Shown one piece after another: positions 21,681-29,260 of a stretch of 64,000 nucleotides of DNA. The stretch spans positions 1 through 64,000 of the forward strand of contig NZ_SBJH01000110.1 in assembly GCF_004368405.1 (NCBI RefSeq), read 5' to 3'. Both the position numbers and the translations under genes were made by a program. This stretch comes from Olivibacter sp. XZL3 (lineage in GTDB: Bacteria; Bacteroidota; Bacteroidia; Sphingobacteriales; Sphingobacteriaceae). Under the pieces are notes generated by a model. It did not search any database. It saw only the letters and a list, made by a program, of their open reading frames with translations, and was not told where the DNA came from. How positions within the stretch are numbered: the first letter of the stretch is position 1; each line of letters starts with the position of its first letter.

Positions 21681-22064
21681 TTATAAAACCAGTTGCTCAA
21701 ATAGTTGATCCAATTTTTCTTCCGGATTGGCGCATAAACCCAAATGCACTTTTGAGGTCTGCAAGATGGTACTGCGTGCCGCTGTTAACCACCTAAACCG
21801 CTCGGCTGGCTCTAACGTACCAATTATACCGGCAGTTTTACCTCCTAAGCAAACCCGATTAAATGCTTCCAAATAGCACTTTAGGTCCTCAACATCCACT
21901 TCCCTATCCAGCATATGCCATTTTGCATCGTTCACATGAAAGCGCATCTGTAAAAATTTGTGTTTTGCACAATACAGTACTACACCGATATTTAGAAACT
22001 CCTCCCGTTCAACGCGCGGCACTAAACGTATCACTGCGTATTCAAACACGTGCCGCTCTTGCAT
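21681..22064 (-). CDS. DUF3037 domain protein
   Basis: 127 residues of the DUF3037 type: FEYAVIRLVPRVEREEFLNIGVVLYC, MRFHVND, and LGGKTAGIIGTLEPAERFRWLTAARSTILQTSKVH. The function is unknown. Two possible ATGs (22076, 22064) exist; ATG22064 has a GGAG Shine-Dalgarno 6 nt away. The gene overlaps the end of the HipA-like kinase by 23 nt with this start. In many genomes DUF3037 follows a HipA-like kinase gene, as here, suggesting that the two proteins act together. Confidence 0.78.
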   Translation of the reverse strand: MQERHVFEYAVIRLVPRVEREEFLNIGVVLYCAKHKFLQMRFHVNDAKWHMLDREVDVEDLKCYLEAFNRVCLGGKTAGIIGTLEPAERFRWLTAARSTILQTSKVHLGLCANPEEKLDQLFEQLVL

Positions 22065-22833
22065 CGTTAGCTCCATTTATAAAAATTGCTGAGTTTTCTA
22101 TCCGTGAATGTAAGAAGTAAGCGTAGGCCGAGCGATGTTCGTCTGCCGACTGAAAGGTAGGTTCGTTTTCCAACCAGTCTTCTGGAATGAGCGATACCAC
22201 TTGTTGAATAAATTCTGCATTCAGCACTTCCTTTGCAAAGGCGTCTACACTTTTCAGTTCCGTTGCCTGTTTCAATAACACATGATCTTTAATTTGTACA
22301 AATGGCTTAAGAGCCTGCTCCTTCCAATTGTGCCAACTATGGTGAAAATACAAAGAAGCGCCCTGATCAATCAACCAGAGCTCCTTATGCCACATTAACA
22401 TGTTGGTATTTTTAGCCGTCCGATCGACGTTCATAAGTAACGCATCTAACCACACGATCTTCGAGGCCAGCTGGGCATCCACCGTATAGGCAATGGGATC
22501 ATAGGTGATGGCACCCGACAGATAATGTACTGCCAAATTGAGTCCCACACTAAATTTCAGCAGATCTTGAATTTCTTCGTCCGGCTCCAATCGCCCAAAG
22601 TCAGGTTCCAGATGGGCAAATACCAGTTCGGGTACTTTTAGCTGTAGTGCCCTGGCAATTTCGCTGCCGATCAATTCCGCAATCAGCGCTCGTGTACCTT
22701 GCCCCGCCCCTCGAAATTTAAGGACGTATAGAAAGTCGTCATCTGCCTCAATAATAGCGGGCATGGATCCACCCTCGCGTAAAGGCGTTACGTATCTTAC
22801 TACGTTGACATTCCTTAAGTGTATTTCTTTCAT
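22042..22833 (-). CDS. HipA-like kinase (short form)
   Basis: A 263-residue relative of the HipA Ser/Thr kinase that lacks the usual HipA N-terminal subdomain. Visible kinase features: Lys39 in the YVLKFRG strand (ATP lysine candidate), acidic EL in the following helix, catalytic loop NVDRTAKNTN with N135/D137/N142, and an LIDQG metal-binding motif with D156. Its start codon overlaps the stop of the GH18 gene (ATGA), and its end overlaps DUF3037, so the three are translationally coupled. Full-length HipA is a toxin acting on GltX. The target and effect of this short form are unknown, and no HipB-type HTH gene is nearby. Confidence 0.75.
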   Translation of the reverse strand: MKEIHLRNVNVVRYVTPLREGGSMPAIIEADDDFLYVLKFRGAGQGTRALIAELIGSEIARALQLKVPELVFAHLEPDFGRLEPDEEIQDLLKFSVGLNLAVHYLSGAITYDPIAYTVDAQLASKIVWLDALLMNVDRTAKNTNMLMWHKELWLIDQGASLYFHHSWHNWKEQALKPFVQIKDHVLLKQATELKSVDAFAKEVLNAEFIQQVVSLIPEDWLENEPTFQSADEHRSAYAYFLHSRIENSAIFINGANDARAARV

Positions 22834-24569: not shown

Positions 24570-25289
24570 TTATAGCGAAAAGGCATTGCTCATCTTTTGC
24601 AGCGCTTTAGGAAGCGCTCCGAAATCGTCGATCTGTATATCCGCAGACCCGTTTCCCGCTAATACCAAATCTTCTTCAATACCGTCCACGTTAAGCCAAA
24701 TCGTTTTGCAACCGACTTCTTTAGCAGGAATAATATCCTTCTTGAACGAATCGCCAATTACTACACATGCAGCAGCATCCAGCCCGATCCGATCCACTCC
24801 GAGCTGATAAATCGCAGGATTCGGTTTGCGCACGCCTACCACAGCAGATTCCACAATATCGTTAAAATAACCAATCAACCCCAAATCGGTCAGCACCGAC
24901 TGAATATTACCATAAAAATTCGAAACCAACACCATCGGATAACGATCGGCCAGTACATCAAGGCTTTTTTTCGCATTCTCAACAGTAGAGAGAACAAGCT
25001 TCATGCAATGACCGACAATCGCTGCTATTTTCGATTCAAAATCCGCATCCAGTTTTAGATACAAAAATTGCTGCTGAATTTTCAAATGCAATACTTCGCT
25101 AAAAATATGGTGCGGTTTGATAATCGGATTAATGGCCAAAGACTTTTCGCCAAACGTGTAGGCCTCCAAAAACTGTTCGTAAGTCAGCATGATGCCTACC
25201 GCTTGATAAGCCTCCCAAATAACATTCGCCCAATGCCTACCATTTGTGTCGATAGTACCGCCGTAATCGAATAACAAGCCTTTAATCAT
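24570..25289 (-). CDS. HAD-family hydrolase (last gene of lipid-headgroup-like operon)
   Basis: 239 residues with an IA-type HAD fold. Motif I is LLFDYGGTID (Asp8, with Asp10 replaced by Gly: DYGGT not DxDGT), motif II VLVSNFYG, motif III around VGVRKPNPAIY (Lys) and motif IV VVIGDSFKKDI. The acid/base Asp of motif I is replaced by Gly, which is seen in some HAD proteins. It is 3 bp from the flippase-like gene upstream and is the last of five co-oriented genes. The likely job is hydrolysis of a phosphomonoester in the same pathway, but no substrate is visible. Confidence 0.82.
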   Translation of the reverse strand: MIKGLLFDYGGTIDTNGRHWANVIWEAYQAVGIMLTYEQFLEAYTFGEKSLAINPIIKPHHIFSEVLHLKIQQQFLYLKLDADFESKIAAIVGHCMKLVLSTVENAKKSLDVLADRYPMVLVSNFYGNIQSVLTDLGLIGYFNDIVESAVVGVRKPNPAIYQLGVDRIGLDAAACVVIGDSFKKDIIPAKEVGCKTIWLNVDGIEEDLVLAGNGSADIQIDDFGALPKALQKMSNAFSL

Positions 25290-25292
25290 ATT

Positions 25293-26336
25293 TTAACGTA
25301 TATTCATATTATCATTAACTTCTTCCAATACTTCGCCTGATTTGTCAACATTGCTTTTCGAAATTCGCATCAGCGCAAGGCCTATAATAATCCAAAAGAC
25401 CTCCCGGATCCGCATAATAATTCCAATAAAAATACCGGACGAAGCTGGCATGCCAACGCTTTTCAATGCCAAGGCCAAACCACCTTCCCGCGTTCCGAGC
25501 TGCATAGGAAAGAAAAATATTAAATTAGCGAATAACGACGAACCGGAACTGATAATAAGCGACTGAACAACACTCATATTCAACCCTATAGCCTTTGCCG
25601 TACAAAAAATTTCGATGCAGCCCACTACCCTTGCGATAAACTCGAAGGTCAAAGCTTTAAAAAACCGTTCCCTTCGTCTCGCGTACAATTCGGTGATCTG
25701 ATAATCGATCTCTTCAAGACTTTGCCGTTTTTCCGCCACAAAAACGCTCACCTTTTTCCTCAGGCCAGGAATTTTAGCCAATACCCTAAAGGTGCTTAAC
25801 GTAAATCCTTTTTTATAAACGCGACTAAACCAGTAACAAAGAACCACGCCGGTAACAAACATAATCGCACATCCCGTTACCATAATGGCATTAACCGGTA
25901 CATATATTAAAATCAAGACGATGGATGCGAGCCAAAACAATACATGCGAGAACATGTGCATAAGGCTATATAGCAAAACCGAAGAACTGGCCTTTTGGAT
26001 GCCCAAGTAAGGTTTCAGTTCCATAATTCGATACGGTTCACCCCCCAGTGCAACAAAAGGTGTGATATAATTGATAGCATAACCAGTGATGGTCAACTTT
26101 AGCACGGAGCCGAACGGCAAATTGCTGGCTGGTATAGCGGGCTCCTGAATGATCGCTTTAAAAGCAATCGCGTTAAAGAGGTAGATAACAAGCCAACTCC
26201 CAAGTACTGGTAAAAACCACCAACCTGTTTTCTTTATATTATCCCAAATAACGTCTATGCCCAAGGCGTATACCATGTAGCATAAGGTAGCTATCCCAAT
26301 AACGAAAAATAAAAGTTTATATAACTTGCTAGCCAT
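25293..26336 (-). CDS. Flippase-like LPG-synthase-type membrane protein
   Basis: 347 residues, about 8 helices, of the lysylphosphatidylglycerol synthase transmembrane (UPF0104) family. Pattern: NAIAFKAII at helix 2, ITGYAINYITPFVALGGEPYRIM as the conserved G-G-E-P-x-R segment (about residues 92-114), and PMQLGTREGGLALALKSVGM near residue 280-300, the second family signature. Such proteins flip or modify lipids, or donate headgroups. The start ATG follows the TAG of the upstream gene immediately. It is in the operon with the CDP-alcohol phosphotransferase and may move that enzyme's lipid product across the membrane. Confidence 0.82.
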   Translation of the reverse strand: MASKLYKLLFFVIGIATLCYMVYALGIDVIWDNIKKTGWWFLPVLGSWLVIYLFNAIAFKAIIQEPAIPASNLPFGSVLKLTITGYAINYITPFVALGGEPYRIMELKPYLGIQKASSSVLLYSLMHMFSHVLFWLASIVLILIYVPVNAIMVTGCAIMFVTGVVLCYWFSRVYKKGFTLSTFRVLAKIPGLRKKVSVFVAEKRQSLEEIDYQITELYARRRERFFKALTFEFIARVVGCIEIFCTAKAIGLNMSVVQSLIISSGSSLFANLIFFFPMQLGTREGGLALALKSVGMPASSGIFIGIIMRIREVFWIIIGLALMRISKSNVDKSGEVLEEVNDNMNIR

Positions 26337-27281
26337 CTACACCTTGTACTCGTTAATGCGCTCATAAAAATGTGCACTCACTTTTTCCTGCCTATTGCAC
26401 ATATAAATCAGGATCGGATTCAGCACAAATAAATCGAAAAAGAAATAAATCCAGGCATAATCGATAACGAGCCACAAAAAAAGGAAAATCACACGCGTAT
26501 TAAACTGCACGATATTGGTATACTTCATAAGGGGTTTATTCATATACCGAAAGTCCTTGATTAAATTGGCAGGCAAGCCGTCTTTAAATTCACTACGAAT
26601 AACACCTAAAAGCTTTTGTAACTTAGGCGAAAAACGTTCTTGCATTTTCGTATAATTCAAGTAGCCCTTGGAAACAAATTTCGTCCAAGCATGCTGCGAC
26701 CATGTTAAACGATCATATTCTTCCTGTAAATCCTTGCTGTTATCCAACTCACTTCCACTTGTTCCCTTAATAAAGAACAGATGTACATTTCGGTAATAGT
26801 CGGCCATCGCTGATTGAACCATATGTGAGATACCAGCGAGGATACCGAAGATCCAGATGGCGGCAGTCCAGCCTTCGTTCATAGCGCGTAAACAAATAGC
26901 GATATGAATAGAAGCAAACCAAAAATCGCCCGCGAAGCCATCTAAAATCCTACCAAATCTACTTTTGTTGTTTGTGAGGCGTGCCAGCTGGCCGTCCGCA
27001 CTATCAAGTGAGTTGGCGAACATTAATAACAACATACCAACGAAGTTGATACTCAAAGACGGATAATAAAAAAGAACACCTGCCGCTACACCGAAAAAGA
27101 TGCTGATAATAGTTACCGCGTTTGGTGTTAAGCCTACTTTTTGGCAAAAAAATGCAATCTGAAGACCTATGGGACGATAAAAATGAATGTCGATCTTCTC
27201 CTCCGTATCATTAGACTTCAACGAATTTTCAAAGATTTCTTTGTTCTCTTGCTTCTTATTTTTCACTTGCAATGATTCCAT
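26337..27281 (-). CDS. CDP-alcohol phosphatidyltransferase family protein
   Basis: Membrane enzyme of 314 residues that transfers a phospho-alcohol from a CDP-alcohol. The whole family signature D(x)2DG(x)2AR(x)8G(x)3D(x)3D is present (DSADGQLAR then GRILDGFAGD, residues about 93-119). About 30 polar residues precede the first helix. The start is placed on the ATG at 27281; a TTG just before (27284) is also possible. It overlaps the ATP-grasp gene by 26 nt. No Phe/Ser/inositol marker is visible, so the alcohol is unknown. Next to a nucleotidyltransferase, an uncommon CDP-linked headgroup is likely. Confidence 0.88.
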   Translation of the reverse strand: MESLQVKNKKQENKEIFENSLKSNDTEEKIDIHFYRPIGLQIAFFCQKVGLTPNAVTIISIFFGVAAGVLFYYPSLSINFVGMLLLMFANSLDSADGQLARLTNNKSRFGRILDGFAGDFWFASIHIAICLRAMNEGWTAAIWIFGILAGISHMVQSAMADYYRNVHLFFIKGTSGSELDNSKDLQEEYDRLTWSQHAWTKFVSKGYLNYTKMQERFSPKLQKLLGVIRSEFKDGLPANLIKDFRYMNKPLMKYTNIVQFNTRVIFLFLWLVIDYAWIYFFFDLFVLNPILIYMCNRQEKVSAHFYERINEYKV

Positions 27282-28152
27282 CAATCTGTTTCTGAAATGT
27301 GTTTATTAATAGCTGCGCAATAGAAGAAGCGGCACTTTCCCTGCAAGGCGCAAAACTCGGCCAGTCGTTCAAATCTATAATGGTAATGTTGCCCTCGGGA
27401 TCGATTATCGCATCTCCTCCAAAAATATGGACATCCAAAACGCGCGCAGCATTCAATGCTATTTGTTTCAGCCCGTTTTCTTCAAACTGGTTATAAACCA
27501 GTTTACTGTTTATCTGCTCGTAATGTGCATATTTGTGATGATTGTGTTCATACGGATAAAACCAAAAGAAAAAATCGGTTCCCCTTACACCGTAGAACTT
27601 TACCAGATCGCCAACCAAATGCTTCGAGATCACCGCATCTGGAATTCCCCTCAAGGCGTATTCCCTTAAAATTCCCAACCCTTCCTCGCGTGAAGAAACG
27701 AAGGTTACGTCTTCTTTATGGATAGCGTGAAAATCACCTCGTTTTATCCAGACACCCGGCTGTGGGAACTCATTAAATAGTCGTTCATCCCGACAATCGG
27801 TAGATACAATAATACTTTTTGGATAAGGAATTTGATTTTTCACCAATAAATTGGTCATATTGGTACGGAAACAATTTTCTACGCCAAAAGCTGAATTGAT
27901 CACACAGGCGCCCTGCGCTTCCAGCTGTTGCAATTTTTTAATCACCGTCTTCTCTCTCGCCATGGAAACAACGCATGAATCCGCGCTAACCGCATCATCT
28001 TGCAAAAACTCTTCCTCACTGTAGATACGAACATCACAGCCCTCCCTTTTTAAAGCGTCCATGCTCAGCAAAAAGATTGCTTCGTCATTTCCTATATGGT
28101 TTGGAGAAAATGTCCGCCCGCGGCGAACACCGATTATCTTGATCTTTTTCAC
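27256..28152 (-). CDS. ATP-grasp-type ligase-like protein
   Basis: 298 residues. The C-terminal half resembles an ATP-grasp domain of the RimK/glutathione synthetase type: WIKRGDFHAIHKEDV (nucleotide-binding Lys region), a FGGDAIIDPEGNITIIDLNDWPSF catalytic segment with metal-binding Asp/Asn, and the loop RESAASSIAQLL. The N-terminal part has a Rossmann-like fold with NHIGNDEAIFLL. It has no DxD glycosyltransferase motif. It would ligate an amino acid or acid to an amine in the same pathway. Starts 7 bp after the nucleotidyltransferase gene and overlaps the next gene by 26 nt. Confidence 0.75.
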   Translation of the reverse strand: MKKIKIIGVRRGRTFSPNHIGNDEAIFLLSMDALKREGCDVRIYSEEEFLQDDAVSADSCVVSMAREKTVIKKLQQLEAQGACVINSAFGVENCFRTNMTNLLVKNQIPYPKSIIVSTDCRDERLFNEFPQPGVWIKRGDFHAIHKEDVTFVSSREEGLGILREYALRGIPDAVISKHLVGDLVKFYGVRGTDFFFWFYPYEHNHHKYAHYEQINSKLVYNQFEENGLKQIALNAARVLDVHIFGGDAIIDPEGNITIIDLNDWPSFAPCRESAASSIAQLLINTFQKQIDGIIASEK

Positions 28153-28159
28153 TTGCTGT

Positions 28160-28879
28160 TTATTGCGATATCTTTTCTTCGTTTAACCACTCTTCCGCTA
28201 AGTGCAGATCCGCTAAATGGTCGATATCTATTATTTTATTAAAAATAAACGCTTTCACGCTCAATCGTTCTGTTAATAACAGCCGTTGATAGTTTCGCAT
28301 GCGTTCTACCTTGTTATTAATCGCCTTATCCACGCATTGTAACGCCTTCCTTCGCAAGGCATAAATCCCTCCCGAAACAAGGATACCGGCTTCTCCTGCT
28401 TTCGTATCGGTAAAGGCAACAACGTCACCGGTTTCGTTCACTTCTACATATAGGGGGCTTTCATCTTCTACAAAGGGCGTCACCGCCATTAGGGCGTCGA
28501 GTTTTTTATCGCCTTGAAAAGCTTGCAAATAGCTTCTAAACTCCTCTTCCCTAAAAATAGTATCCACAGTAGTCGCACATAACTCGTTAACGGTCGGTAT
28601 GTCCTTTAAAAGTTCATAGAAGCTATGCAAAGAACTTTCCGTACTTTTTTGCACCACACGAATAGGCACTTTGCCGCCGTAGGAAGCTAAGAAGTCTACC
28701 AATGACGCCGATTCTTCATTAACGATAATATGGATTGTTTCCGCCCCGTTTGCTGCAAAAATGGCGATTAACCGCTCTATTAAAGGGATGCCGTTTAACC
28801 TAGCCAAAGGTTTCGGATAGGGGTAACCACTCTTCGCCAAGCGCGACCCTTCACCGGCAGCAATTATTGCAAAGTCCAT
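28160..28879 (-). CDS. Sugar/alcohol-phosphate nucleotidyltransferase
   Basis: 239 residues with the NTP-transferase N-terminal motif AIIAAGEGSRLA near residues 3-15 and PYPKPLARLNGIPLIERL at 20-38, which binds NTP. The following parts fit the LicC/CTP-type or MobA-like cores: GAETIHIIVNEES, TTVDTIFREEEF (Mg-binding Asp) and a late GGIYALRR. It heads the five-gene operon. The likely product is a nucleotide-activated alcohol that feeds the CDP-alcohol phosphotransferase encoded two genes on. A sugar-1-phosphate is an alternative substrate. Confidence 0.85.
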   Translation of the reverse strand: MDFAIIAAGEGSRLAKSGYPYPKPLARLNGIPLIERLIAIFAANGAETIHIIVNEESASLVDFLASYGGKVPIRVVQKSTESSLHSFYELLKDIPTVNELCATTVDTIFREEEFRSYLQAFQGDKKLDALMAVTPFVEDESPLYVEVNETGDVVAFTDTKAGEAGILVSGGIYALRRKALQCVDKAINNKVERMRNYQRLLLTERLSVKAFIFNKIIDIDHLADLHLAEEWLNEEKISQ

Positions 28880-29260
28880 ATTCTTTCTATAAATTTCTTA
28901 AGCGCACAAACTTAGATAAACTTTCCTTTAAATGAAAACCTGTAAATTTTGGTACGGAAACATTATTCCGTCAACTTCGACCGCAAAGAAACGCCATACA
29001 ACGCTTATTTTGGCACGCAAATCGGTCAGAAAACCATAAATGCTTAACAATAACCTAACAGAGCGAGCTTACCGATAAATCATCATAGACGTCTTAATCC
29101 TTTTATAAAGACGGTCGAAAAGTCAAATTCATATTTTTTTTACACAAAAAAAACAATGGCGAACCTGCTATAGGCTGTTGGTTTTCCCTTTCTCGTTAAA
29201 GTGTATAATAAGATAGTTAAAAACTTTCACTACTTTAGAAAACTAAACAGAAAGACCTAC
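28880..29260. other. Divergent intergenic region
   Basis: 381 bp of AT-rich DNA between the nucleotidyltransferase operon (leftward) and the MFS gene (rightward). It holds the -7 box at 28907-28914. An open extension of the MFS gene from GTG29201 is not accepted: it lacks membrane or signal features. No RNA gene or repeat seen. Confidence 0.5.
28907..28914 (-). promoter_or_regulatory. -7 box before the five-gene operon
   Basis: CAAACTTA on the + strand, i.e. an exact TAAGTTTG on the minus strand, 28 bp before ATG28879. The -33 region is TTTTC-like only. It would set a short leader for the operon. Confidence 0.4.

Follow-up and report, generated by a model that had tools for sequence, protein, structure and literature searches.

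A conserved five-gene operon of Olivibacter sp. XZL3 as a probable route to inositol lipid headgroups in Bacteroidota

Positions 1 to 64,000 of contig NZ_SBJH01000110.1 from Olivibacter sp. XZL3 (Sphingobacteriaceae; RefSeq assembly GCF_004368405.1), here called the window, contain a minus-strand operon of five genes with a probable function in lipid headgroup synthesis. The first gene (28160..28879) encodes a nucleotidyltransferase (NTP-transferase; Pfam NTP_transf_3, 46.6 bits), proposed here to be a CTP:inositol-phosphate cytidylyltransferase. It is followed after 7 bp by the gene for an ATP-grasp protein with a GTG start (27256..28152), modeled with AlphaFold and proposed to be an inositol-phosphate kinase, with a ligase as the alternative. 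The gene for a CDP-alcohol phosphotransferase homologue (26337..27284; PF01066 CDP-OH_P_transf, 45.6 bits) overlaps the ATP-grasp gene by 29 bp and directly adjoins, with a gap of 0 bp, a gene for an LPG_synthase_TM, or flippase-like, membrane protein (25293..26336; PF03706, 94.8 bits); a HAD-family protein gene (24570..25289; PF00702, 58.9 bits) lies 3 bp further on. All four Pfam matches pass the family cut-offs, supporting the nucleotidyltransferase and flippase-like labels of the initial annotation, and the open reading frames, coordinates, shared orientation and tight spacing that it described (successive gaps of 7, -29, 0 and 3 bp) were verified. A pattern search located TAAGTTTG at 28907..28914 on the minus strand, 27 bp upstream of the NTP-transferase gene, which fits the Bacteroidetes -7 promoter pattern TAnnTTTG; matches to this pattern in the window are no more frequent than chance predicts, and position alone favors this one as the promoter.

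Conservation of the operon was measured in 151 Sphingobacteriaceae genomes. An ortholog of the CDP-alcohol phosphotransferase gene (70-100% identity) was present in 11 of them, and all 11 kept the five genes in the same order. A profile scan with the ATP-grasp protein, using one genome per species, recovered at least 566 relatives, and the loci of the best 80 were surveyed; some of these contigs end early, which may lower the gene counts. These loci come from Sphingobacterium, Olivibacter, Parapedobacter, Dyadobacter, Runella, Parabacteroides, Prevotellaceae, Muribaculaceae, Dysgonomonadaceae and others, and they carry the CDP-alcohol gene in 80 cases, the NTP-transferase gene in 78, the HAD gene in 74 and the flippase-like gene in 32. 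The last is missing in many Bacteroidales, where the CDP-alcohol gene is followed directly by the HAD gene. Because the order is kept in 11/11 family genomes and the NTP-transferase, ATP-grasp, CDP-alcohol and HAD genes recur together in 74-80 of 80 loci, the arrangement is not due to chance. A search for the same set elsewhere in Bacteroidota had been suggested when the locus was first annotated, and the linkage found there is consistent with a dedicated lipid-headgroup pathway. One genome (G534; loci L085 and L181) has a split cluster, with the NTP-transferase and ATP-grasp genes 1.1 Mb from the CDP-alcohol, HAD and myo-inositol-phosphate synthase (MIPS) genes. Three loci from assemblies titled Pseudoflavonifractor, Lachnospiraceae and Clostridium (L116, L135 and L150) have the cluster in a form typical of Bacteroidales, and these assemblies are probably mislabelled or contaminated bins.

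The recurrent partner of these genes is MIPS. MIPS is encoded by seven of the 11 cluster-bearing family genomes, every time in the cluster neighborhood; among cluster genomes beyond the family it was found in 15 of 17, adjoining the cluster genes in 13, and it falls inside the fetched stretch at 49 of the best 80 loci. MIPS was not found in the window's own genome, which is 100% complete, nor was a MIPS remnant beside the operon. In another genome lacking MIPS (G052), a second, MobA-like NTP-transferase gene (L035:4807-5427) stands beside the operon at the place occupied by MIPS in related genomes.

The distribution of MIPS within the family also shows what the operon replaces. MIPS occurs in 40 of the 151 Sphingobacteriaceae genomes, beside a window-type cluster in 7, beside a different CDP-alcohol gene in 31 and beside both in none, with 2 cases left unassigned. 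The CDP-alcohol gene in the 31 genomes has a PIP-synthase-like motif with the last signature aspartate, D4, intact. At 19 further MIPS loci from the same class the neighbor was PIP-synthase-like in 14; these 19 loci contained neither a window-type cluster nor an NTP-transferase, CDP-alcohol and HAD set beside MIPS without the ATP-grasp gene. The context genes MIPS, flippase-like, c11, DUF4833 and epimerase occur around either module, and in one case (L282) a cluster of PIP-synthase type with MIPS carries a flippase-like copy 70% identical to that of the window. Thus, a four-gene module of NTP-transferase, ATP-grasp, CDP-alcohol and HAD genes replaces the PIP-synthase module, and within the family the two are mutually exclusive beside MIPS. 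We infer from this exchange that an inositol lipid is the likely product.

Heaver et al. 2022 showed that the BT_1522-1526 genes make phosphoinositol diacylglycerol (PI-DAG) and phosphoinositol dihydroceramide (PI-DHC), and predicted that B. vulgatus and Prevotella have an alternative cluster, in which an NTP-transferase, a CDP-alcohol phosphotransferase and a HAD protein are encoded near MIPS (PMC9246714). PI-DHC is made by two carriers of this alternative cluster, B. vulgatus and P. veroralis; the same authors mention moderate homology in Sphingobacteria and cite a ceramide phosphoryl-inositol in S. spiritivorum (PMC9246714). Judging by which genes occur at related Bacteroidales loci (Parabacteroides, Prevotellaceae, Muribaculaceae and metagenomic 'Bacteroides sp.'), the window-type cluster would be this alternative cluster. 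One caution is that their CDP-alcohol gene was found by a pattern including D4, which the window family lacks; the term ATP-grasp is absent from the main text of that paper, and its pathway has no ATP-grasp step (PMC9246714). Together with the co-occurrence with MIPS, the match to the predicted cluster makes inositol the likely headgroup. What had been annotated as an undescribed pathway of unknown product is therefore largely this predicted inositol-lipid cluster, extended by an ATP-grasp protein that the prediction omits. Gene content, linkage to MIPS and among the genes themselves, replacement of the PIP-synthase module and residue conservation lead us to conclude, with a probability of about 0.8, that the operon synthesizes the headgroup of an inositol phospholipid or phosphoceramide.

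The cluster also occurs in variant forms. Ten distant clusters (families f17 and f35) also carry MIPS, and among them MlaE/F/D lipid-transport genes, a class III aminotransferase and a GFO/IDH/MocA oxidoreductase each occur in eight, in sets that overlap but are not identical. The best named match of the oxidoreductase is inositol 2-dehydrogenase, below the cut-off. Four of the ten (L076, L077, L082 and L083), all with aminotransferase and dehydrogenase-like genes, have tandem ATP-grasp copies; in a tree of the ATP-grasp proteins three of the extra copies group together in a supported clade and one lies outside it. This gene content suggests that the f17/f35 clusters make modified inositol headgroups, and these four, which also carry MlaE/F/D, possibly make an amino-inositol lipid and a dedicated transporter for it. 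At the Dyadobacter, Runella and Rhabdobacter loci (L087-L098, L104, L109, L110 and L124) there is no MIPS within 10 kb, and most have genes for a PfkB-family kinase, DUF4833 and an epimerase; in one genome with this cluster type (G335), MIPS was not found genome-wide. The PfkB protein of these clusters is perhaps an inositol kinase, and inositol 3-kinase was considered. A 41% identical PfkB copy lies elsewhere in the window genome (G000:C83:15856-16701).

The ATP-grasp protein reaches the cut-off of no Pfam or NCBIfam family. The ITPK profile PF05770 is likewise below its cut-off, with 4 of 30 family members matching weakly (best E 0.0048). AlphaFold was unusable from the single sequence (pLDDT 42), and a 46-sequence alignment gave a model with an ATP-grasp fold at pLDDT 91. 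A profile search of PDB sequences returned the ligase PsnB (6e-6), AtITPK4 (9e-6), Entamoeba ITPK (EhITPK, 1e-4) and human ITPK1 (1.5e-3), followed by the weaker matches ArgX (0.06) and RimK (0.84). The residues K137, H142, H145, K185, D247, D260 and N262 are invariant at 79 of 79 ATP-grasp loci, and the D-x-N motif and Lys185 are also constant in a set of 30 sequences. In the hidden Markov model (HMM) alignments the metal motif reads D-L-N, D-V-N and D-I-N in three ITPKs and E-L-N in PsnB. Where ligases have a Gly-rich loop the family has a KRGDxHAxH loop. RimK of the window genome and of related genomes has both E-x-N and the Gly-rich loop (GTQGIG in this genome), the two marks of RimK/LysX-type ligases that the operon's protein lacks. 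When aligned to RimK with hhalign, the C-terminal metal motif was matched and the middle misplaced; no usable alignment to Ddl was obtained. In Asp1, a PPIP5K, the metal ligands are D321, D333 and N335, and K260 bridges the ATP gamma-phosphate and the inositol phosphate (PMC9765450). D247, D260, N262 and K185 supply the same D..D-x-N and Lys pattern, with K185, placed by inspection, appearing to sit in the strand motif that corresponds to Asp1 K260. The residues thus lean toward inositol-phosphate kinases rather than amino-acid ligases, and on this comparison we regard a kinase as the probable, though far from assured, identity of the enzyme.

The CDP-alcohol protein departs from its family in one position. 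The class I signature D1xxD2G1xxAR...G2xxxD3xxxD4 comprises eight absolutely conserved residues, of which D4 is the likely base (PMC4634129). The window protein has D1, D2, G1, A, R, G2 and D3, seven of the eight, and the D4 column is occupied by glycine (Gly119; codon at 26928..26930, minus strand) in 24/24 and 79/79 sequences, two sets that share a few genomes, so that the full signature reported in the initial annotation is not present. HMM alignment to AF2299 (4o6m), the best solved relative, supported the register, with D4 falling on the Gly119 column; the following residue is mostly Asp or Asn. As controls, two other CDP-alcohol enzymes of the window genome and the PIP-synthase-like genes of its relatives keep D4. 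The acceptor may be deprotonated by another residue, or it may need no base. The missing D4 was rejected as a sole marker of the pathway: CDP-alcohol paralogues at L182-L186 have Gly or Ser at this position, and D4-less paralogues stand beside short-chain dehydrogenase (SDR) and PlsC-like acyltransferase genes (L182 and L185, with L183 similar) without an ATP-grasp gene. These last loci (L182:4242-9298, L183 and L185), in which the paralogue adjoins a PlsC-like acyltransferase, a sigma-54 activator, LptE and, in L182 and L185, the SDR, are perhaps another ceramide headgroup pathway.

In the NTP-transferase, R13, K23 and D106 are conserved at 77-78 of 78 loci. Their counterparts in the inositol-1-phosphate cytidylyltransferase of T. 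maritima are R16, K26 and D112 (PMC12275187), matching in order and with similar spacing. The profile alignment is near full length for 4jd0 and 4mnd and stops at residues ~181-187 for the best-scoring sugar-nucleotide enzymes. The HAD protein keeps D8, S123, K155, D180 and D185, with motifs II-IV present, and a phosphatase function is plausible.

The proposed product is phosphoinositol dihydroceramide and/or phosphatidylinositol, made by the alternative, CDP-inositol-type route; we infer the catalytic steps, their order, the acceptor and the kinase assignment as follows. Inositol phosphate would be supplied by MIPS, encoded in the operon of most relatives, while the window strain presumably imports inositol and uses a kinase. 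The NTP-transferase would activate inositol phosphate with CTP, and the CDP-alcohol phosphotransferase homologue would move phosphoinositol onto a membrane acceptor, either ceramide or diacylglycerol, with the LPG_synthase_TM protein assisting lipid translocation. The ATP-grasp protein would act as a kinase on inositol or inositol phosphate, and the HAD protein paired with it would take the additional phosphate off again. All of the enzymes would find a place in one scheme, Ins(3)P -> Ins(1,3)P2 -> CDP-inositol-phosphate -> lipid-PIP -> lipid-PI. We give this specific scheme, with the ATP-grasp protein as a kinase, slightly better than even odds.

Several observations weigh against these assignments. 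Four of the 11 family cluster genomes, that of the window included, have no MIPS. The top profile match of the ATP-grasp protein, level with AtITPK4, is a ligase, and the nearest folds of its model are the amino-acid ligases RimK, LysX and ArgX (Z about 22), ahead of PPIP5K2 (19.4). Replacement of D4 by Asn nearly abolishes the activity of mycobacterial PIP synthase (PMC4634129), and the window enzyme lacks this base. NTP-transferase profile scores do not separate inositol phosphate from sugar phosphates, as sugar-nucleotide enzymes score equally well. Motif I of the HAD protein is DYGGT and not DxD; Gly10 stands where the second Asp would be in 23/23 sequences of one set and 72/72 of another. 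HAD proteins that lost this second Asp have not necessarily lost activity (PMC7614388); the phosphatase label first given to the window protein is uncertain.

The ligase-like features of the ATP-grasp protein define the first alternative. The D-Ala ligases, at Z about 20, also lie among its nearest folds, and the comparison by Foldseek and VIA-align does not separate ligase from kinase; we hold a ligase identity to be doubtful. As a carboxylate-amine or carboxylate-alcohol ligase it would add an amino acid or other acid to the inositol headgroup, and the product would be an amino-inositol or aminoacyl-inositol lipid; this comes near the initial proposal of an ATP-grasp ligase adding an amino acid or acid. 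The nearest folds and the top profile match, to a graspetide ligase (PsnB), agree with this, and its best support is the presence of aminotransferase and inositol-dehydrogenase-like genes in eight of the ten f17/f35 clusters, all four with tandem ATP-grasp copies among them, as though these clusters produced an amine to be acylated. However, D-x-N replaces E-x-N, Lys185 is present in all 30 and 79 sequences and a His loop stands in for the Gly-rich loop; the protein is equally constant at loci without an aminotransferase; and alternative-cluster species are reported with PI-DHC free of amino acid (PMC9246714). The ATP-grasp fold of the initial proposal is thus borne out by the model and its ligase activity is not, since the residues are kinase-like even where the fold would allow either, and an acylated headgroup appears unlikely.

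That the product is not a lipid but a soluble phosphodiester (di-inositol phosphate or glycero-phospho-inositol, for example) is improbable. Such a product would agree with the closest solved CDP-alcohol enzymes, among them AF2299 and the DIPP synthase, neither of which processes lipids (PMC4634129), but the operon has a flippase-like membrane gene, distant clusters have MlaE/F/D genes, the module is mutually exclusive with the PIP-synthase module, and alternative-cluster species make PI-DHC (PMC9246714). Transfer of a sugar phosphate to a cell-surface glycan is very improbable: although heptose, mannose and glucose nucleotidyltransferases are among the NTP-transferase profile matches and inositol is present in the B. 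thetaiotaomicron capsule (PMC9246714), the conserved set has no glycosyltransferase and its recurrent partner is MIPS, not sugar genes.

Few bacteria make inositol lipids, which in gut Bacteroidetes affect how the cells interact with the host and resist antimicrobial peptides (PMC9246714). As published, the alternative pathway was predicted with three enzymes; the present data add the ATP-grasp protein as a fourth, equally constant across Bacteroidota, and reconstitution without it may fail. Four points appear to be new: this constant partner, the absence of D4, the change in motif I of the HAD protein and the larger gene sets of the distant clusters. If the ATP-grasp protein is a kinase, inositol-phosphate phosphorylation by ATP-grasp enzymes would reach into bacteria. 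The missing D4 raises the question of how a base-less CDP-alcohol phosphotransferase works, or hints at an acceptor other than an ordinary alcohol. The full combination, a widespread bacterial inositol-lipid pathway with a previously unrecognized ATP-grasp inositol-phosphate kinase as functional counterpart of ITPK and PPIP5K, a base-less CDP-alcohol phosphotransferase and a HAD protein with an altered site, is offered tentatively, at well under even odds.

Elsewhere in the window (21681-22833), overlapping genes for a HipA-like kinase (HipA_2) and a DUF3037 protein, a pair kept in two relatives (L036 and L037), resemble a kinase-based toxin-antitoxin-type or regulatory pair.

Among known systems, the ceramide diphosphoglycerate pathway of Caulobacter (CpgD) resembles the operon in its use of a related cytidylyltransferase, by which a phospho-alcohol is activated for the headgroup of a ceramide; the headgroup is different, and an ATP-grasp or CDP-alcohol partner is not mentioned (PMC12275187). 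The di-myo-inositol-phosphate pathway (inositol-1-phosphate cytidylyltransferase/DIPP synthase, AF2299) shares with the proposed route activation by CTP followed by a CDP-alcohol phosphotransferase, and includes the closest solved relatives. It differs in its fused domains, its soluble product and the presence of D4, and we know of no ATP-grasp partner in it. The ITPK and PPIP5K kinases resemble the ATP-grasp protein in their D..D-x-N metal ligands, a Lys near the position of K185 and the lack of a Gly-rich loop, whereas the window protein is bacterial and far below the PF05770 cut-off, and would act on a low inositol phosphate or on inositol itself. BT_1522-1526 of B. thetaiotaomicron have a D4-intact PIP synthase, a PgpA-type phosphatase and an AUR1-type transferase, none of which is in the window operon, but share with the window type the same MIPS and likely the same end product; the PIP-synthase-type clusters of relatives share its neighbors, namely the flippase-like gene, c11 and DUF4833. 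The nearest system is the alternative cluster of Heaver et al. 2022. It differs from the window genome in having MIPS nearby, as do the relatives of that genome (7 of 11 in the family and 13 beyond it). Like the window-type clusters, it brings together an NTP-transferase, a CDP-alcohol phosphotransferase and a HAD protein, usually beside MIPS, and the B. vulgatus locus tags BVU_RS13095, 13105 and 13115 leave space for one gene between each pair, fitting the gene order of the window.

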